From: an uncultured Verrucomicrobiota bacterium
GTDB taxonomy: Bacteria > Verrucomicrobiota > Verrucomicrobiia > Limisphaerales > UBA9464
Assembly: GCA_903907995.1 (NCBI GenBank)
Contig: CAIVQH010000019.1
Coordinates: 62,001 to 126,000 of the forward strand
Direction: 5' to 3'
DNA length: 64,000 nt
Within the stretch, counting starts at the first letter, position 1; the number at the start of each line of letters is the position of its first letter. Shown here one piece after another: positions 21,147 to 30,329 of this stretch. The notes under the pieces were generated by a model, which was not told the DNA's origin, ran no database searches, and worked only from the letters and a program-made list of their open reading frames with translations. Made by a program: the position numbers and the translations under genes.

Positions 21147-24100
21147 ATGAACCTCGTCACCGCCGCCCTGCGCCGGCCGTTCTCCGTCATGGTCGCGGTC
21201 GTCGCGGTGGTGCTCACGGCGCTCTTCGCGCTGCAGAAGATGCCACGCGACATCTTCCCCAGCCTGGGCGTGCCGGTGCTCTATGTGGCGCAGCCCTACG
21301 GCGGCATGGACCCCGCGCAGATGGAGGGCTACCTCACCTATTACTACGAGTACCACTTCCTCTACATCACCGGCATCGAGCACGTGGAGTCGAAGTCCAT
21401 CCAGGGCACCGCGCTGCTCAAGCTCCAGTTCCATCCGGGCACGGACATGGCCCAGGCGCTTGCCGAGACCATCGGCTATGTGAACCGGGCCCGCGCCTTC
21501 ATGCCGCCGGGCACGGTGCCGCCGTTCGTGATGCGCTTCGACGCCGGCAGCGTGCCTGTGGGCAACCTTGTCTTTGCCAGCGACACGCACACGGTGGCGG
21601 AGCTGCAGGATGCGGCCCTGAACCGTGTCCGGCCGCTGTTCGCCACCCTACCGGGAGTCTCAGCTCCACCGCCCTTCGGTGGCAGCGCCCGCGCGATCGT
21701 CATCCGCGCCAACCCCGACCGCCTCCGCGCCTTCAATCTGTCGCCCGATGACGTGGTAAAGGCGCTCGCGGCCGCCAACACCATCACGCCCTCGGGCAAC
21801 ATCCGCATTGGCGACCAGATCCCGATGGTGCCGCTGAACTCGGTCGTGCGGGACATCAAGGAGCTGGGCAACGTGCCACTCCGCACCGGGACCGATCCGG
21901 CGGTGTTCATCCGTGACATCGGCACGGTGGAGGACGCCGCCGACATCGCGACCGGCTACGCGCTCGTGAACGGACGGCGCACCGTGTACATCCCGGTCAC
22001 GAAGCGGGCCGATGCCTCGACCCTCAGCGTCGTGAAGCTCGTGCGGGAGAACCTGGCGAAGTTCCAGGCGGTGCTGCCGGATGGCATGAGGGTCAGCTAC
22101 GAGTTCGACCAGTCACCCTACGTCACGCGGGCCATCCACGGCCTCGCGCAGGAAGGCGCTCTGGGCGCGGTGCTTACCGGGCTGATGGTGCTGCTGTTCC
22201 TCCGCGACTGGCGGACTGCGCTGGTGGTCGTGCTCAACATCCCGCTCGCACTGCTAGCCGCCGTCATCGGCCTCTGGCTTACCGGACAGACCGTGAACCT
22301 GATGACCCTCGGCGGCCTCGCGCTCGCCGTGGGCGTTTTGGTGGACGAGGCGAGCGTCACCGTTGAGAACATCCATACGCGGCTGGCGAACGGCCAGCCG
22401 GTGGCCTGGGCCGCCTTCTCCGCGACGAACGAGACGGCCGGGCCGCGGCTGCTCGCGATGCTCAGCGTGGTGGCCGTGTTCATCCCGGCGTTCTTCATGG
22501 TCGGCGCAGGGCGGGCGCTGTTTTTGCCGCTGGCGCTTGCGGTCGGCTTCGCGATGGCCGCGTCCTACCTGCTCTCCACGACGCTCGTGCCCGTGCTCTC
22601 GGCGTGGTTGCTGAAGGCGCCCGCCCACGGCCCGGACGATGGCCGCGGCTTCTTCGCCCGGATGCAGGCGGCTTACGCAAACCTCGCCCAGGGCCTGGTT
22701 CGGCTTCGCTGGCTGGTCGTCCTGATTGCGCTCCTGGTCTCCGGCGGCATGGTCTGGGTGATCGGCGGCCGGCTGGGCACGGAGATTTTCCCGACGGTGG
22801 ACACCGGCCAGTTCCAGTTGCGCCTCCGTGCTCCGGCCGGCACGCGCATCGAACGTACCGAGGCCATCGCCACGAACGTCCTCGCCGCCATCAAGGCCGA
22901 GGTCGGGGCGACGAACGTCGCGATCACGCTTGGCTTCGTGGGGGTCCAGCCGCCGAGCTTCCCCGTCAACACCATCCATCTTTGGACCAGCGGGCCGGAG
23001 GAGGCGGTGCTGCAGGTGCAGCTCCGGCCCGACTCAGGCGTGCGCATCGCGGCCTTGAAGGAACGGCTCCGGCAGAAGTTCGCGGTCACAATGCCGGAGG
23101 TGAAATGCTCGTTCGAGCCGGCCGACATCGTGAGCCGCGTGATGAGCTTCGGTTCGCCGACGCCCGTCGAGGTCACGGTCAGCGGGCCGAACCTCGCCGC
23201 CGACCGCGATTACGCCGACAAGGTGCGGGACGCGCTCGCGACCATCCCGTCGTTGCGCGACCTGCAGTTCCAGCAGGCGCTCGACGTGCCGACCGTCGAG
23301 GTGAATGTGAACCGCGAGCGCGCGGGCCTGCTGGGCGTGACGGTCGGCGACGTCGCGCGGTCGCTGGTCGCGGCGACTTCCTCCAGCCGTTTCACCGCGC
23401 CGGTCTATTGGGCCGACCCGGCCAGCGGCGTCGCCTATCAGATCCAGGTCGAGCTGCCGCAGGCGCGGATGAACTCGCTGGAGGAGCTGAGGAACATTCC
23501 GGTGAATGCGAGGGGAAACGATTCGCTGCTGTTGCGCAGCGTGGCCGGGGTCCAGAAGGGCATGGCGGTCGGCGAATACGACCGCTACAACATGCAGCGG
23601 CAGGTCACGCTCACGGCGAATGTGGCCGGCGAGGATCTGGGCACCGTCTCGCGCCGGATTTCCGAAGCCCTGGCCAAAGTGGGCTCACCGCCCGCGCGGG
23701 TGGCGCTCAATGTGCGTGGCCAGATCGCACCACTGACACAGATGCTTGCGAGCCTGCGCTCGGGGCTGCTGCTCGCGGTGGTCGTCATCTTCCTGCTGCT
23801 GGCGGCGAACTTCCAGTCGCTCCGGCTTTCGTTGGTCGTCGTCTCGACGGTTCCCGCAGTGGTCGCTGGCGTCGCGCTGGCACTCTGGCTCACAGGCACG
23901 ACGCTTAACCTCCAATCCTTCATGGGGGCCATCATGGCGGTGGGCGTCGCCGTCGCGAACGCCATCCTGCTCGTGACCTTCGCCGAACGGTCGCGCCGCG
24001 CTGGCGCGACGTCGCCTGCCGCCGCCGTCGAAGGTGCCCGCAGCCGGCTCCGGCCGATCCTGATGACAAGCCTCGCCATGATTGCGGGCATGCTGCCAAT

Positions 24101-24332
24101 GGCGCTGGGCCTGGGGGAAGGTGGCGAGCAATCCGCGCCGCTGGGTCGCGCCGTGGTCGGTGGCCTCGTCGGCGCGACGCTGGCCACACTTCTTGTGCTG
24201 CCGGCAGTCTTCGCCCTCGTCCAGTCCCGTGCCAGCCGTCAGTCCGCTTCGCTCGACCCGAACGATGCGGAGAGCGGCCGCTATCTTCCTCTCTCCGGGC
24301 GGGCCACCCCGGCGAACCCGACCCACTCCTGA
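21147..24332 (+). CDS. RND-family efflux transporter permease (AcrB-like)
   Basis: An inner-membrane proton-driven pump of 1061 residues. It has the AcrB plan: a first membrane helix ([21 protein letters not shown]), a periplasmic porter domain beginning [22 protein letters not shown], helices 2-6 from about 330, and a repeated second half. Helix 4 carries the proton-relay region [18 protein letters not shown] (Asp at about 398). The second half has [20 protein letters not shown] and [27 protein letters not shown]. The ending is [18 protein letters not shown]. It is first in an operon with adaptor and TolC-like genes. The substrate is not evident; the drug (HAE) or an unclassified branch is more likely than metals. 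Confidence 0.93.
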
Positions 24333-24358
24333 CCCGCAAACTCAGAACCCGCTTACCG

Positions 24359-25444
24359 ATGAATATGTCCCGTTCCCGCTCCGGTTGTGTGCTCGCCGCG
24401 CTGGCCCTCGGCTGGTTGTCGACCGGCTGCAATCCGGCGGCCACCGATTCCGCCAAGGCCGCTCCGGCCGCGCCGCTCCGCGTGCCGGTGACGCAGGCGA
24501 AGCGCGGGCCAATCACGCGCAGCGTCAGTCTCCCGGCCAACGTCCGTGCGCTCCAGCAGACAACGCTCTACGCGAAGGTCGCGGGCTTCCTCAAGACCAT
24601 CAGCGTGGACCGGGGCGACACGGTGAAGGCCGGCGATCTGCTCGCCGAGATTGAAGCGCCCGAACTCCTCGCCGACGCGGCGAAGTATCAGGCGGAGGTC
24701 GCGGTCACGCAGGCCGACCATCAACGCCTCACCGAGGCGCTGAAGAAAGCGCCCGATCTCGTGGTCCCGCTCACGGTGGACGCGGCCAAAGGCAAGTTCG
24801 AGGTGGCGCTGGCGGGCGCGAAGCGCAACGAGACGCTGCTCGGCTTCACGAAGATTGTCGCGCCGTTCTCCGGCGTCGTGACAAAGCGCTGGGCCGATGT
24901 TGGCGCGCTGATACCGGGGGCCACCGGCAACAGTTCGCCCCAGAGCGCCGCCGTGGTGACGCTGGCGGATTTCAGCCGGGTGCGGGTGGAGGTGTTCGTG
25001 CCGGAACCGGAGGCGCCGCTGCTCAGGCCGGGACTCGCTGCCGAGGTGAAGGTGGACGAGCTGCCCGGCAAAGCCTTCACCGGCCAGGTGACACGCATCG
25101 CGTGGTCGCTCGACGAAACGACCAAGACGATGCCGGTCGAGATCGAGCTGGCAAACCCGGACGGCACGCTGCGCCCCGGCATGTTCGCCACCGCGAAGAT
25201 TGTGGTCAGCCAGAAACCGGATGCGCTCCTGCTGCCCGCCGATGCGCTGGTTGTTGAGAAGGCGAAGACCTCGGTGTTCATCCTCGTGGACGGCAAGGCG
25301 AAGAAAGTGCCGGTCAAAGTCGGCTTCGAGGACGGCAAATCCTTCGAGGTGCTGGAAGGTGTCACCGCCGAAACGATGGTGATTGTAACCGGCAAGCTGC
25401 CCCTGGTGGAGGGGCAGCCGGTCAACCGTGCGGAGGGCAAATGA
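24359..25444 (+). CDS. RND efflux periplasmic adaptor (membrane fusion protein)
   Basis: Links the RND pump to the outer-membrane channel. 361 residues. The N-terminal segment ends in LSTGC, a slightly off-consensus lipobox, so a lipoprotein is likely. The biotinyl-lipoyl half motifs are at LYAKVAGFLKTISVDRGDTV and IVAPFSGVVTKRWADVGALI, bracketing a short coiled-coil hairpin. A beta-barrel with RVEVFVPEPEAPLLRPGL and a membrane-proximal domain with LPADALVVEKAKTSVFIL follow. It starts 27 bases after the permease and its stop overlaps the TolC-like start. Confidence 0.93.
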   Translation: MNMSRSRSGCVLAALALGWLSTGCNPAATDSAKAAPAAPLRVPVTQAKRGPITRSVSLPANVRALQQTTLYAKVAGFLKTISVDRGDTVKAGDLLAEIEAPELLADAAKYQAEVAVTQADHQRLTEALKKAPDLVVPLTVDAAKGKFEVALAGAKRNETLLGFTKIVAPFSGVVTKRWADVGALIPGATGNSSPQSAAVVTLADFSRVRVEVFVPEPEAPLLRPGLAAEVKVDELPGKAFTGQVTRIAWSLDETTKTMPVEIELANPDGTLRPGMFATAKIVVSQKPDALLLPADALVVEKAKTSVFILVDGKAKKVPVKVGFEDGKSFEVLEGVTAETMVIVTGKLPLVEGQPVNRAEGK

Positions 25445-26823
25445 TGAAGCTCCTCACGCTTGCGCTTTCGTTCGCGTTGCTCGTCGTAACGCTGCCGCTA
25501 ACCGGGGCGGACGGCACGAATGTGTTTGCCATCGATCTGCCCACGACGTTGCAGCTCGCCGGTGCACGCAATCTGGACGTGCAGATCACCCGTGAGAAAC
25601 TGGCCGAGGCGAAGGCGAACAACGAGAGCGCTGTCTGGCAGTTCTTCCCGGCCATAGTCCCCGGGGTCGGCTACCGGCGGCACGACAACCTGATCCAGGA
25701 CGTCGCGGGCAACGTCATCGACGTCCACAAGGACGCCTACACCGTCGGCCCCACGATTGCGGCGCAGCTCGACCTCGGCGACGCCATCTATAAGAAACTG
25801 GCCGCCCGCCAGTTCGTCACGGCGGCGGCGTTCGCCCTGGAGAGCCAGCGGCAGGAAAGCGCGCTGACGGCGGTGCGCGAATACTTCGGCCTCGCCCAGG
25901 CCCAGGCCTCGGTGGGCGTGGCTGCGGAGTCCGTCCGCATCGCGGAAGACTTCGCAGGACAGGTGCGTCAGGCGGTCGGCGCGGGCATCGCGTTCAAGGG
26001 CGACGCGCTGCGCGCGGAGGTACAGGCGGACCGGGACCATCTCGCGCTGCGACAGGCGCAGGAACTGGTCACTGTGAGCGCCGCCCGGCTCGTGCGCACG
26101 CTCCATCTCGACGCGAAGGTCGACCTCGTCGCCCCCGCCGACGACCTGGTGCCGCTGACGCTGGTCGCCACCAATGCCGCCCTGGAGACCCTCCTCGCCC
26201 AGGCGCGGGCTGCCCGGCCGGAAGTGAAGCAGAGTCGGGCACAAGTCGCGGCCGCGTACCAGGTCAGGAATGGCGCGAAGTATGGCCCGCTGATCCCAAG
26301 CCTGGGCGCGCAGCTCTTCGCGGGTGGTCTCGGTGGCGGCATTGACGGAGGTCCCGGCCGCTTCGGTGAATCCGAGGACTATCAGTTCACTCTCGGCTGG
26401 CGCCTGGGGCCCGGCGGCCTGTTCGACCGAGGACGCATCCGGGCTGGCGAGGCGCGGTTGCGGGTCGCGCAGTTCACGGATGAAAAACTTGCCGATGAGA
26501 TCACCCGTGAAGTCGTCGCGGGCCACGCCCGTCTGCGGTCGTTATCCGACCAGCTCAACACCGCCGGCCACGCCGTCCGGGCCGCCGATGAATCACTCCG
26601 GCTGACTTCGCAGCGGAAGGAGTTCGCCGTCGGGGTCGTGTTGGAGCACGTCCAGGCGGAGCAGGACCTCACCCGTGCCCGGCTCGACTACCTCAACGTT
26701 GTTGCCGAGTTCAACCGGGCGCAGTTTGAATTGAGGCGCGCCATTGGCGACGCCACGGAGATTCCCGTGCCTCAGCGAGGAACAGAGAAGGCGGATGCCG
26801 GCGGCTTGCAGCCACAAAAGTGA
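25441..26823 (+). CDS. TolC-family outer membrane efflux protein
   Basis: The outer-membrane channel component of the RND system, 460 residues. A signal peptide (LTLALSFALLVVTLPLTGA) precedes two outer-membrane-factor repeats, each mostly long helices: the first from LPTTLQLAGARNLDVQI to LVRTLHLDAKVDLV, the second from LETLLAQARAARPEVKQSRA to RAIGDATEIPVP. The ATG overlaps the adaptor stop codon (ATGATG arrangement), showing translational coupling. The protein ends 30 bases from the convergent EamA gene; no terminator is visible there. Confidence 0.92.
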   Translation: MMKLLTLALSFALLVVTLPLTGADGTNVFAIDLPTTLQLAGARNLDVQITREKLAEAKANNESAVWQFFPAIVPGVGYRRHDNLIQDVAGNVIDVHKDAYTVGPTIAAQLDLGDAIYKKLAARQFVTAAAFALESQRQESALTAVREYFGLAQAQASVGVAAESVRIAEDFAGQVRQAVGAGIAFKGDALRAEVQADRDHLALRQAQELVTVSAARLVRTLHLDAKVDLVAPADDLVPLTLVATNAALETLLAQARAARPEVKQSRAQVAAAYQVRNGAKYGPLIPSLGAQLFAGGLGGGIDGGPGRFGESEDYQFTLGWRLGPGGLFDRGRIRAGEARLRVAQFTDEKLADEITREVVAGHARLRSLSDQLNTAGHAVRAADESLRLTSQRKEFAVGVVLEHVQAEQDLTRARLDYLNVVAEFNRAQFELRRAIGDATEIPVPQRGTEKADAGGLQPQK

Positions 26824-26852: not shown

Positions 26853-27914
26853 TCAATGCCCGTGCCGGTGGTGGAGGTCGGGAAAATGGGGGTGACTGTG
26901 AGTCAGCTCCTCGTGGCGGTGCGGGTGTGCGTGCGGTTCGCCGGGAGGATCGCCGTAAGCATGCACATGCTGGTGGTGTTCGTCGTGCGTGTGCAGGTGG
27001 TCATGCTCCATGGGCTCGTGATGGTGCTCGTGCTCGTGGTGTTCCGTGAGGTGCAGCCATACGCCGGCGGCCATCAGGAACCCGGCAATGACGAGCCCGG
27101 TCGTCATCGGTTCCCTGAGGAAAAACACTGAAATTACCGCGCCCACGAACGGGGCGAGCGCAAAGTAGGCTCCGGTGCGGGCGGAGCCGAGATGCCGCAG
27201 CGCGAGCACAAAGAGGACGAGGCTCACCCCGTAGCCGAGCAGTCCGATCAACCCGATGGTGGCCAGCGTGCCGGCGGCCTGCAGCTTCGCCCCCAAGGCG
27301 AGTGCGATGCCGGTGTTGACCGCTCCGGCGCAGAGCCCTTTCAGCATCGCGATCTGCACCGGATCGGCCCCGGCGACATTGCGTGTGAGATTGTTGTCCG
27401 CCGCCCACGCCAGACACGCGCCGACGATGGCCAGCGCACCCCACGGCAGGCCGGCATCCGGGCGTCCCAGCCACGAGAGCGCTATGGCGCCCAGGGTGAT
27501 GCAGGCCATTCCCCAGGCGATGCGGCGGTCGAAGTTCTCCTTGAACACGAACCAAGCCAGCAACGCGGTGAACACGCCTTCCAGGTTCAGCAGCAATGAG
27601 GCGGAAGCGGCTGGAGTGTGCGCCAGCCCAATCATGAGGAGCACCGGACCGGCCACACCGCCGCAGAGGATCGCACCGGCCAGCCAGGGCGCGTCGCGTC
27701 GGCTGAGCTGGGCCTCATCTGGATGGTCGGACGCGCGTCGGCTGAGCTGCCGCCACAGCGCCAACCCCAGACCGGACCCCAGATAGAGCAGTCCCGCCAG
27801 CAACATCGGTTCCACCACGGGCAGCAGCCGTTTCGCCAGCGGCGTGCTGGCGCCAAACAGCGCGGCGGCAGTGAGCGCATAGGCGATGCCGGTCAGTTTG
27901 GGGCTGCGAATCAT
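26853..27914 (-). CDS. EamA-family transporter with histidine-rich C-terminal tail
   Basis: An inner-membrane DMT-superfamily exporter, 353 residues, with ten predicted membrane helices in two EamA repeats (for example LTGIAYALTAAALFGASTPLAK and ALAIVGACLAWAADNNLTRN). Unlike usual members it ends in about 60 residues dominated by His, Glu and Asp (HHEHEHHHEPMEHDHLHTHDE and further HPH and HHRH groups). That tail almost certainly binds transition metals such as nickel, zinc or cobalt. It is the last gene of a metal-themed minus-strand cluster. Whether the pump moves metal or the tail only senses it cannot be decided. Confidence 0.87.
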   Translation of the reverse strand: MIRSPKLTGIAYALTAAALFGASTPLAKRLLPVVEPMLLAGLLYLGSGLGLALWRQLSRRASDHPDEAQLSRRDAPWLAGAILCGGVAGPVLLMIGLAHTPAASASLLLNLEGVFTALLAWFVFKENFDRRIAWGMACITLGAIALSWLGRPDAGLPWGALAIVGACLAWAADNNLTRNVAGADPVQIAMLKGLCAGAVNTGIALALGAKLQAAGTLATIGLIGLLGYGVSLVLFVLALRHLGSARTGAYFALAPFVGAVISVFFLREPMTTGLVIAGFLMAAGVWLHLTEHHEHEHHHEPMEHDHLHTHDEHHQHVHAYGDPPGEPHAHPHRHEELTHSHPHFPDLHHRHGH

Positions 27915-27980
27915 GATCCTTCGCCTACCAGCCGAAGTACTTCTGCCACGGAGCCGCAGGGGTGTGCGGCCGGACCCCGC

Positions 27981-28325
27981 CTACTTCTTTTCCAACTTCG
28001 CCTTGGCGGCCGCGTCCTGCTTCTTTACCTCGTCGGCGAGCTTGGTCAGGTATTTCTTGGGGTCGGCCTTGAAGTCCTTCACGCAGTTCTTGCAGCAGAA
28101 CTTGATGGTCTGGCCTTCGTGCACCATTTCGAAGGGCGTCATTTCGCTGCCCGCGAATTTCTCCCCGGATACGAGGCAGAACGCGAGCGGGTAAGGCTTG
28201 GCCTTCGCTTCCTTGCCCGGAGCGCTGGTCGCGGCCGACGGCTGGGCTTGGGTGTCGCCGACGGTGACGATGGTGGCGAGGCCTGTGAGCAGGGCGGCGG
28301 CGAAGAGGTGGGACAGAATTTTCAT
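27981..28325 (-). CDS. Exported TRASH/YHS-like metal-binding protein
   Basis: A 114-residue protein with a signal peptide (MKILSHLFAAALLTGLATIV, cut near TQA). The mature part has a cysteine pattern FCLVSGEKF...KFCCKNCVKDFKADPKKYL, resembling YHS/TRASH-type treble-clef metal-binding domains, in which cysteines bind a transition metal. The C-terminus is lysine-rich and helical. Gene context (ECF sigma factor, Met/His-rich peptide, His-tailed EamA) supports a metal role. The exact family assignment is tentative. Confidence 0.75.
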   Translation of the reverse strand: MKILSHLFAAALLTGLATIVTVGDTQAQPSAATSAPGKEAKAKPYPLAFCLVSGEKFAGSEMTPFEMVHEGQTIKFCCKNCVKDFKADPKKYLTKLADEVKKQDAAAKAKLEKK

Positions 28326-28376
28326 AGACTTGTGATGATGGGTAAGATGTTGGGGAAACGGCGGGGGCGCAAATTT

Positions 28377-28970
28377 TCAGGAGCGGGCCAACCAGCGGGA
28401 AAGGCGGGTGCGGAGCTGTTGCCGGGCACGGTAGAGGCGTGATTCCACAGCCTTGACGGTCGTGGCGAGGATACCGGCTGCCTCGGCCAGGGAGCGGTCC
28501 TCCAATTCGCAGAGCACGATGGCCTCGCGAAGGTCGTCGGGCAGGTGCGCAACTGCATCCCGTACGGCCGCCTGTTTTTCCGCGCACTGGGCTGCTTCGT
28601 CGGGCGGGTTTCCGGGTGCCGGCAGCGTATCACCCACGCCGGGACGATCGGCATCGCCGGAGCAGTCCAGCGGCACTTCCGGCCGCCGGCCCACGGCGCG
28701 GAGATGGTTGCGCGCCAGGTTGCCGCCGATGGTGTAGAGCCAGGCGGAGAACTTCTGTTCCGGCCGGAAATCTGCCCGGTGCTGATAGACGCGGACAAAG
28801 GTCTCCTGCGCGAGGTCGTTGGCGGCATCCTCGTCGCGGACGAAGCGGCACAGAAAGCCGAACAACGCCCCGGCGTGCCGCTCCATGAGGGCGCTGAGGG
28901 CCGCTTCGTGCCCCGCCGCGAGCCGCGCCATGTCAGCCCGGTCGAGGGCGTCGGCCTCAGGGGTGCTCAT
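28377..28970 (-). CDS. ECF-type RNA polymerase sigma factor
   Basis: 197 residues with the two ECF regions. Region 2 is FLCRFVRDEDAANDLAQETFVRVYQH with FSAWLYTIGGNLARNHLR. Region 4 is LPDDLREAIVLCELEDRSLAEAAG followed by VKAVESRLYRARQQLRTRL, the helix-turn-helix for the -35 box. Its start overlaps the end of the upstream Spy-like gene by 14 bases, and small membrane and metal-binding proteins precede it. The 110-residue protein two genes upstream has one membrane helix and could be its anti-sigma partner, though no zinc-type anti-sigma motif is seen. Confidence 0.93.
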   Translation of the reverse strand: MSTPEADALDRADMARLAAGHEAALSALMERHAGALFGFLCRFVRDEDAANDLAQETFVRVYQHRADFRPEQKFSAWLYTIGGNLARNHLRAVGRRPEVPLDCSGDADRPGVGDTLPAPGNPPDEAAQCAEKQAAVRDAVAHLPDDLREAIVLCELEDRSLAEAAGILATTVKAVESRLYRARQQLRTRLSRWLARS

Positions 28971-29454
28971 GGGCGGTGTGCGGAAGCCCCATCGCGTCCT
29001 CCAAGCGGCCGGGCAGGCCGAGCGTGAGGCGCTGCATCTCGGCGAGGTAGCGGGTGCCTGCGCCGGGCGGCATCATCCGGGCCACTTCCTGGAAATGGCG
29101 GAGCATCTGCGCCTGGCACTCGGCGCGGAGGGCGGCCGCTTCGGCGAGCTTGAGCTCCGCTTCGGGCGGGACGTTGGTTGCGCCACGGAGCACCTCCGCG
29201 AGTTCGCGGTTCTTCACGGCGAGGCGGGCGCACATCGCCTCGCACTTGGGCTGGTAGGCCTCATGCAGCGGCCGGATGCGCGCAACCTCAGCCTCTGTGA
29301 GTTTGAATTCGTGGGCCAGCCAGGCGAGTTCGTCCGACGCATGGCTCTCGGTGGCGAGGCGGACCCGCGCGGCGCCCCAGTAGCAGACCGCGAAGACCGC
29401 GCCGCCCACCAGCAGCGCGCCGAGCAACCGGCCGATGGCCTGCAGTTTCTTCAA
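28957..29454 (-). CDS. Membrane-anchored periplasmic protein, Spy/CpxP-like (heavy-metal sensor type)
   Basis: A 165-residue protein with one N-terminal membrane helix (LLGALLVGGAVFAVCYWGAAR) and a helical periplasmic part. It contains WLAHEFKLTEAEVARIRPLHEAY and ALRAECQAQMLRHFQEVARMMPPG, the helical hairpin expected of periplasmic heavy-metal sensor or Spy/CpxP-like proteins. Cys in KCEAMCARL may bind metal. It overlaps its neighbours on both sides (4 and 14 bases), so it belongs to a coupled operon with the sigma factor. It is likely to modulate the sigma response or protect periplasmic proteins; this is inference. Confidence 0.7.
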   Translation of the reverse strand: MKKLQAIGRLLGALLVGGAVFAVCYWGAARVRLATESHASDELAWLAHEFKLTEAEVARIRPLHEAYQPKCEAMCARLAVKNRELAEVLRGATNVPPEAELKLAEAAALRAECQAQMLRHFQEVARMMPPGAGTRYLAEMQRLTLGLPGRLEDAMGLPHTAHEHP

Positions 29455-29783
29455 GGGGCTGTCCGTTCGAATGGGCTGACGGCGGCGACGTAGCGGGTCC
29501 GTTCGGTGCGATAGGCCTGGCCGTCACCCGCCCGGATGCCGAACCAGGTACCCGCCAGCATCACGGCGGCGAGGCCGGCGGTGGCGTAGGCGGGGCGCAG
29601 GACGCGGCGGACGAAGTTATCCAGCCAGCCCCGCGGGGATGCCGACTCCGCCGCACGTTCGGCGCGTTGCAGCCGTTGCCAGACGCCTTCCTGGAAACGC
29701 GGCGGCAGGACCGGTGCCGGATGCGCCTCGCGCAGCAGGGCGCTAAGCTCCGGGTCATCCGGGTTGGAGTAGGGAGGGTTCAT
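29451..29783 (-). CDS. Small single-pass membrane protein, possible anti-sigma or accessory protein
   Basis: 110 residues. The cytoplasmic N-terminal half (MNPPYSNPDDPELSALLREA, then PPRFQEGVWQRLQRAERAA) resembles the short N-terminal region of some putative anti-sigma proteins. A membrane helix follows (ATAGLAAVMLAGTWFGI) and a short outside tail. It overlaps the Spy-like gene by four bases (ATGA). A longer upstream reading frame to 29960 runs through the next gene and is rejected. No firm family is recognised. Confidence 0.6.
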   Translation of the reverse strand: MNPPYSNPDDPELSALLREAHPAPVLPPRFQEGVWQRLQRAERAAESASPRGWLDNFVRRVLRPAYATAGLAAVMLAGTWFGIRAGDGQAYRTERTRYVAAVSPFERTAP

Positions 29784-29826
29784 GGGAAAAAGGCGGCGGG
29801 GAGCGCCCGCCGCCCATGAGAGGTGC

Positions 29827-30105
29827 TCAGTTGCAACATGCCATGTGAGCGTGCGCCATTTTCGGGGATTGGCAATGCGCGGAAGCATTCGTGCCGCCGG
29901 TCGTGGCGGGAGCGGAATGACCCGCCATTCCCATGCCCATGGCCATGCAGCCCATCGCATGCGGACCGGCAGGGGCTGGCGTGGTGGCCACGGGCGGGGT
30001 GTTGGCGGCGGCCCGCGGTGAATTCAGCGCCTCGGCGGCACTGACGGCGAAGATCACGCCGATACCGACGGACAGGAGAGCGAGGGAGCTTTTGAGTGTT
30101 TTCAT
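29827..30105 (-). CDS. Exported Met/His/Cys-rich small protein, probable copper binding
   Basis: A 92-residue protein with a signal peptide (LKSSLALLSVGIGVIFAVSAAEA). The mature peptide has a Pro/Ala linker then GPHAMGCMAMGMGMAGHSA and KMAHAHMACCN: methionine, histidine and cysteine motifs typical of copper or silver chaperones. No family is recognised. It is the first gene of the minus-strand metal cluster and diverges from the C39-like gene, so the cluster promoter probably lies at 30106-30329. Confidence 0.72.
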   Translation of the reverse strand: MKTLKSSLALLSVGIGVIFAVSAAEALNSPRAAANTPPVATTPAPAGPHAMGCMAMGMGMAGHSAPATTGGTNASAHCQSPKMAHAHMACCN

Positions 30106-30329
30106 AAGGGAGCTGCGGAGTGTTTTGTTTTGTGTCGTTTGGGCGACGAAACTTGCCGCCCTTCACCACCGCTTACCCCGCCGCCGCCGAAACCCCGCGA
30201 ACTTTGTTCCGCTTTCTGCGCCGGTTCAAAAAACAGCCGAATTGGCTGCTCCGATTTCCGAGCGGTTCACGATTTCGCGCCGAGCCATATTGCCAAAGCG
30301 CCGTTACTCCCGAACCTTGGACCAATCTC

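Follow-up and report, generated by a model that had tools for sequence, protein, structure and literature searches.

A probable CnrYXH-like sigma factor switch with a three-cysteine sensor, probably for a soft metal, in Verrucomicrobiota

In the CnrYXH system of Cupriavidus metallidurans, release of an extracytoplasmic function (ECF) sigma factor turns on a resistance operon (PMC7689651), and two helices of the anti-sigma factor CnrY wrap around that sigma factor (PMC7406223). In Myxococcus xanthus, the copper-linked ECF sigma factor CorE senses copper through its own Cys-rich C-terminal extension (PMC10141476). Here, we describe a six-gene cluster from an uncultured Verrucomicrobiota bacterium (GenBank assembly GCA_903907995.1), encoded on a stretch of 64,000 nucleotides (nt; contig CAIVQH010000019.1, positions 62,001 to 126,000) that we refer to as the window. 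The middle three genes encode an anti-sigma factor, a membrane-anchored sensor, and an ECF sigma factor. We consider it likely that this triad is a CnrYXH-like transmembrane switch in which a three-cysteine sensor, most likely for Cu(I) or Ag(I), governs an ECF sigma factor that acts on the promoter of its own operon. An envelope sensor would thereby probably feel a toxic, copper-like metal via three cysteines and free the sigma factor. The features of the cluster, all on the minus strand, are as follows.

30174-30196, minus strand: ECF-type promoter, GGGGTT-N11-GGGGTA, about 70 nt 5' of the first start codon
29827-30105, minus strand: pep, exported SPRA-motif peptide, Met/His/Cys-rich, 92 amino acids (aa), assigned by its family profile (A4)
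29451-29783, minus strand: asf, CnrY-like anti-sigma factor, 110 aa, assigned by alignment, structural model, and position before the sensor
28957-29454, minus strand: spy, CnrX-like periplasmic metal sensor with a membrane anchor, 165 aa, TTG start, assigned by profile and fold
28377-28970, minus strand: sig, ECF sigma factor, 197 aa, with sigma70 regions 2 and 4 well above cut-off
27981-28325, minus strand: yhs, exported YHS/TRASH-like protein, 114 aa, with FCLVS...KFCCKNC; below the PF04945 cut-off (27.6 versus 30.3 bits), with the YHS Cys pattern present and common to relatives at triads
26853-27914, minus strand: eam, DMT/EamA transporter, 353 aa, with a His-rich C-terminal tail and an EamA domain at 108 bits

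The triad spans positions 29783-28377 in the order anti-sigma factor, sensor, and sigma factor, which is the same as the order CnrY-CnrX-CnrH that we take from the name CnrYXH. Screening of 84,980 species genomes yielded 55 loci, nearly all of them labelled Verrucomicrobia or a subgroup thereof; four are labelled only as 'bacterium' and one (L093) as Proteobacteria. The L093 contig carries a verrucomicrobial-type sensor fragment and a sigma factor and is probably mis-binned. The anti-sigma gene directly precedes the sensor gene in 53 loci, 51 of which have the two genes spaced by -4 to +12 nt, and the sigma gene directly follows the sensor gene (-20 to +140 nt) in 50 of the 55. DUF3347, a Cys-rich peptide, and a CusC-B-A operon lie between sensor and sigma factor in L064, L074, and L076, DUF3347 does so in L088, and the sole sigma factor match in L075 is on the opposite strand. 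Within a set of 58 genomes of relatives, including the window's own, the sensor was detected in 17 and the triad genes occur together at its loci (the anti-sigma match in L017 and L035 was by cluster only). When the phylum was sampled evenly, the sensor profile matched 23 of 145 genomes, mostly as triads. Plasmids searched with the sensor by tblastn returned no match, and the second PF13801 match in the window's genome (C23, L001) is a small exported protein with no sigma factor apparent by eye in 3.4 kb.

An earlier note on this DNA had described six minus-strand genes and had proposed their co-occurrence as a check. All six open reading frames (ORFs) are present where it placed them; the six do not form a conserved unit, however, and only the three in the middle are retained across the loci. 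All six genes were found together in just one genome, from the same genus (G003, locus L004), among 18 relative loci compared; there they occur in the same order, and the stretches that match are 86-94% identical at the protein level, which marks all six as genuine genes. The EamA pump with a His-rich tail is a local addition that was found elsewhere at three loci only (G003, G008/L042, and L076).

The spy product had been described as Spy-like. It does share a fold with Spy, but its best matches by both profile and fold are CnrX and NccX. PF13801 (Metal_resist) was detected (E<=1e-3) in 48 of 51 aligned sensors, and the window sensor scored 27.9 bits against a cut-off of 29.2 (29.4 in the in-genome search). 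These 51 sensors (alignment A2) comprise the window and 50 of the 55 loci, all from the species-genome scan, with L062, L092, and L093 (truncated), L088 (a run of N), and L094 (internal deletion) omitted; alignment A1 comprises 13 of 19 sensor rows. The best match of the sensor profile in the PDB was NccX (E 5e-5), gapless over 134 positions, and a profile was needed because a search with the single sequence returned chance-level matches only. The structural model predicts a membrane anchor and a helical hairpin with a predicted local distance difference test (pLDDT) score of 90. CnrX entries head the Foldseek list (prob 1.00, TM-score 0.71-0.75 by target length in the best ten rows) as well as the VIA list (Z 9.9), and the CnrX structures matched include E63 and M123 mutants.

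We take the metal ligands of CnrX to be H42, H46, E63, H119, and M123. In the alignment with NccX, the corresponding columns of the window sensor hold L43, A47, H64, H120, and V124, such that H119 alone is kept and four of the five ligands are replaced. Of these, Met123 is described as a metal ligand of CnrX (PMC7689651). H64, C71, C75, C113, M117, and H120 are identical in 51/51 aligned sensors; H120 is contained in one of the search patterns used in the scan and its invariance is therefore partly selected, while no pattern contains the cysteines. Among 32 more distant sensors from the phylum, 10 have all three cysteines and 2 more have them in two aligned pieces; the others comprise one C-W-C, nine classic, six S67-type, three mixed, and one aberrant sensor. 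In all nine classic sensors the columns mapped from CnrX read exactly H-H-E-H-M, and the three cysteines are missing.

Several observations concern individual sensors. The L094 sensor (same place as L037) has lost about 46 residues in frame, including C71 and C75, with its triad intact; this is either a real deletion or an assembly error. The classic H-H-E-H-M type is seen in L142, L143, L148, L162, and L163, and next to its classic sensors genome G185 encodes DUF3347 proteins as well as CusA-like pumps whose AIGTIVDMGVVLIEN motif is unusual. The third CnrX-like type, with H64, S67, L71, A75, and often C113 (L141, L144, L146, L147, L153, and L154), has its own sigma factor clade and no recognised pump nearby. 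Classic and three-cysteine versions occur within one genome in G156 and G075, and G156 holds all three types.

The anti-sigma factor was evaluated in alignment A3 (52 of 53 anti-sigma rows with L088 omitted, plus the window), which displays cytoplasmic helices followed by one membrane helix, and the asf product gave a weak match to an NCBIfam anti-sigma model (E 7e-4). Its structural model has helices at residues 11-20 and 30-48, another short helix, and a long helix at 64-102 that contains the membrane span. This predicted layout agrees with the published description of CnrY (PMC7406223). Phylogenetic reconstruction of 47 sigma factors (the window's own, 18 from the set of 55 loci, and 28 from distant loci, with no sigma factor match in L129, L140, and L151) placed the sensor types in separate clades, with three label changes, the minimum, against a mean of 14.8 after shuffling. 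The proposal of the earlier note that the sigma factor is controlled by the small membrane proteins is most likely correct.

A promoter motif, GGG[A/G]T[T/A]-N11-GG[C/G]GTA, was detected with a constant 11-nt spacer in 25 of the 28 regions upstream of the operon, against 1.07% of shuffled regions. Across all 55 loci (867 kb), 39 sites were identified versus 1.2 in shuffles, and several precede yhs, outer-membrane factor, or DUF3347 genes. The motif was absent upstream of nine classic and six S67-type operons and was found at one of 13 distant cysteine-type loci, and is therefore a trait of the order-level group. The data did not support a wider regulon in the genome of the window, where the strict motif is no more frequent than a reversed-pattern control.

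Genes, gene order, predicted fold, ligand changes, and promoter conservation are the observations on which the switch builds; we infer the sequestration and release of the sigma factor, the identity of the metal, and the roles of the peptide, the YHS protein, and the EamA pump. In the proposed mechanism, asf, in the role of CnrY, would hold the sigma factor at the membrane via its two N-terminal helices, and spy, in the role of CnrX, would be anchored in the inner membrane and expose its sensor domain, a helical hairpin, to the periplasm. There, C71, C75, and C113 on two facing helices would bind a soft metal ion, with Cu(I) or Ag(I) the most likely, possibly assisted by H64, M117, and H120. 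The change upon binding would be relayed across the membrane to the anti-sigma factor, and the freed sigma factor would drive the GGGRTW-N11-GGSGTA promoter before its own operon. The output would be more of the switch together with detoxifying cargo, which in relatives may include CusCBA and copper ATPases. The SPRA peptide and the YHS protein probably bind periplasmic metal, and the His-tailed EamA protein may act as an exporter.

The peptide belongs to a fast-changing exported family with [LN]SPRA, often repeated, after the signal peptide and with an end that is either Cys/Met/His-rich or Cys-free. As assessed by eye, a small ORF with SPR or SPK stands right before the anti-sigma gene in 24 of the 50 loci with enough upstream sequence, and a Cys-rich small ORF without SPR or SPK does so in 3 more. 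A profile built from the triad-linked peptides was searched genome-wide, with 79 first-look candidates scored in most genomes; it identified at least 15 matches, spread over 13 of the 58 genomes, each of which is among the 17 genomes with a sensor, and no match in the 41 genomes without a sensor among the candidates scored. Fourteen of the 15 listed matches are at a triad. The other is an orphan (L160, G052:C169, 5123-5482) with no triad gene in the 12 kb fetched, and it faces a gene that we take from its sequence to be aspartic-protease-like; genes of this protease-like family stand upstream of Cys-free SPRA peptides at several triad loci. No Pfam model matched the SPRA peptides tried, and no NCBIfam model matched that of the window. 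A more specific possibility, which we advance only tentatively, is that a CnrX fold has been rebuilt as a three-cysteine Cu(I)/Ag(I) sensor with the SPRA peptide delivering or removing the sensor's metal as its dedicated partner.

Copper or silver is our best guess for the metal of the cysteine sensor, because CusA-type pumps, copper ATPases, and YHS proteins adjoin the triads of relatives. Within 10 kb of the 55 loci, where flanks are often short, YHS-like genes were identified at 26 loci, parts of resistance-nodulation-division (RND) systems at 24, copper-type ATPases at 9, and any of these at 34. Four neighbouring pumps that were tested reached CusA/CzcA family scores between 917 and 1175 bits, and the pump of L049 scored 1141 bits to CusA versus 480 to ZneA. 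The same switch could instead use its thiol site for Hg, Cd, As(III), Zn, or several metals, with the copper genes being mere neighbours. Three-cysteine sites suit several metals, classic-type sensors also adjoin CusA-like pumps, and at 21 of the 55 loci the fetched flank lacks YHS, RND, and copper ATPase genes alike. However, full-length flanking pumps are nearly always of the CusA type, with all three CusA methionines, at the positions we take them to occupy, in 16 of 19, and no Hg, As, or Cd genes were recognised among those recurrent neighbours that were annotated, which are not every neighbour. We regard another metal as unlikely, if a real contender. The motif set DFG-DGA-VEN is described for HME1/2 pumps, and HME4 is described as an exporter of Cu+/Ag+ (PMC3637150); most of the pumps here have AIGxxxD or a near form instead, and two extra pumps and a fragment have DFG.

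It is improbable that the three cysteines form a redox or disulfide switch for envelope thiol stress instead of a metal site. The periplasm is oxidising, and the modelled hairpin makes an interhelix disulfide of C113 with C71 or C75 conceivable, but the cysteines stand where a fold of metal sensors has its metal site, metal ligands are retained in sister clades, and the gene neighbourhood is one of metal efflux. Least probable, in our assessment, is a chaperone of the Spy/CpxP kind in place of a sensor, with a sigma factor that responds to damaged envelope proteins. In favour of this reading, the fold is common to CpxP, ZraP, and Spy, all of which were among the search matches, and sigma-H and RpoE are the nearest relatives of the sigma factor; the membrane anchor, the cysteine site, the order of anti-sigma factor, sensor, and sigma factor, and the best matches to CnrX and NccX argue against it.

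A number of findings weigh against the copper-type CnrYXH-like switch. The asf model is of middling quality (pLDDT 78), and its alignment profile, searched against the PDB, did not match CnrY, such that sequence homology to CnrY was not found. The sigma factor is nearer to sigma-H (6in7, E 1.5e-26) and RpoE (E 8.5e-22) than to CnrH (E 3e-18). The Foldseek E-value for CnrX is weak (0.02) and helical bundles match easily; with a Z of 9.9 for such a bundle, the agreement of sequence and fold therefore outweighs either alone. The 12 distant cysteine-type sensors strictly keep only the three cysteines and Y67, with H64 in 9/12, M117 in 5/12, and H120 in 8/12, and the core site is thus the three cysteines; the triad sensor of L036 (G013), outside alignment A2, has no cysteines at these columns. 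The 21 loci with fetched flanks devoid of YHS, RND, and copper ATPase genes count here as well, as does the window's own operon, which has no Cus pump; no heavy-metal RND pump was detected at its locus either. The strict promoter motif occurs in the window's genome at this operon and one further site (2 versus 3 for the reversed-pattern control). Finally, the pump beside the classic-ligand sensor L162 is also CusA-like with three methionines. This ruled out pump type as a feature separating the sensors (Cus pumps with cysteines, Cnr pumps with classic ligands), and because pump type does not separate them, that cysteines mean copper is something we infer.

Regarding the rest of the locus, the earlier note had described several gene overlaps, of which there are just two, a 4-nt overlap of the anti-sigma and sensor genes and a 14-nt overlap of the sensor and sigma genes; the remaining neighbours are separated by 43, 51, and 66 nt. 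The Met/His/Cys-rich character of the first peptide holds (the mature part, 66 residues long, has roughly 7 Met, 5 His, and 4 Cys), as does the His-rich EamA tail (about 68 residues, 26 His). The reported absence of CopA and CusA is true of the cluster and not of the genome, where CusA/CzcA-family pumps (contigs C2, C18, and C24) and copper-type ATPases (C49 and C11) score above cut-off. A complete tripartite RND operon (permease, adaptor, outer-membrane factor; 21147-26823, plus strand) is convergent with the cluster, with 29 bases between its end and the EamA gene; the permease (21147-24332) scored 405 bits against a CusA/CzcA cut-off of 701 and is not of the heavy-metal type, and the operon does not adjoin the cluster in G003. 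A search of Rfam recovered a small bacterial signal recognition particle (SRP) RNA (RF00169, 1750-1845, plus strand) as its sole match.

The suggestion that the cluster is a new metal-stress module stands in part: it resembles a metal-stress module, but because its gene order, sensor fold, and layout match CnrYXH, it is not new in kind. Its unusual features are the cysteines of the sensor site, the family of SPRA peptides, and the conservation of the promoter. The openly licensed literature, in the portions available, describes CnrYXH and CorE and none of it a cysteine-type CnrX, a copper-type CnrYXH, or such a system in Verrucomicrobia. If the switch operates as proposed, the relay of a soft-metal signal across the membrane would add a second route to the direct binding of copper by CorE (PMC10141476). 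Within one phylum, the same sensor fold occurs in His/Glu/Met and three-cysteine versions, each with its own sigma factor clade, and how a sensor changes its metal can therefore be tested by ligand swaps. For the Verrucomicrobiota, represented mostly by uncultured genomes, there would also be a candidate promoter of a metal response that can be read from sequence, and a family of exported peptides whose genomic setting is defined.

Compared to described systems, the sensor shares its fold with the chaperones ZraP, Spy, and CpxP (PF13801 and LTXXQ families), and with ZraP also the Pfam family; unlike these proteins, which we take to be soluble, it is membrane-anchored, lies in an operon with anti-sigma and sigma factors, and has a three-cysteine site. 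CsoR and RcnR resemble it in helical arrangement (InrS Z 8.5) and cysteine ligands (PMC7689651), but are cytoplasmic DNA-binding repressors that have no membrane anchor and gave no sequence match here. CorE is likewise a copper-linked ECF sigma factor, but is described as working without an anti-sigma factor, and the window sigma factor has no Cys-rich C-terminal extension, with region 4 reaching residue 186 of 197 and an end of ...RTRLSRWLARS. The closest parallels are the nickel and cobalt systems CnrYXH and NccYXH of C. metallidurans, which share with this locus an anti-sigma factor, an anchored periplasmic helical sensor, the fold of that sensor, and an ECF sigma factor. The locus differs from CnrYXH in the replacement of four of five ligands, three invariant cysteines, a sigma factor nearer to sigma-H and RpoE, CusA-like pumps in relatives, and an additional SPRA peptide and YHS protein. 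Since the CnrX ligand set was tested and was not found in its sensor, the triad is not a member of the nickel and cobalt CnrYXH system, yet it probably works like CnrYXH, with a sensor of the CnrX fold.

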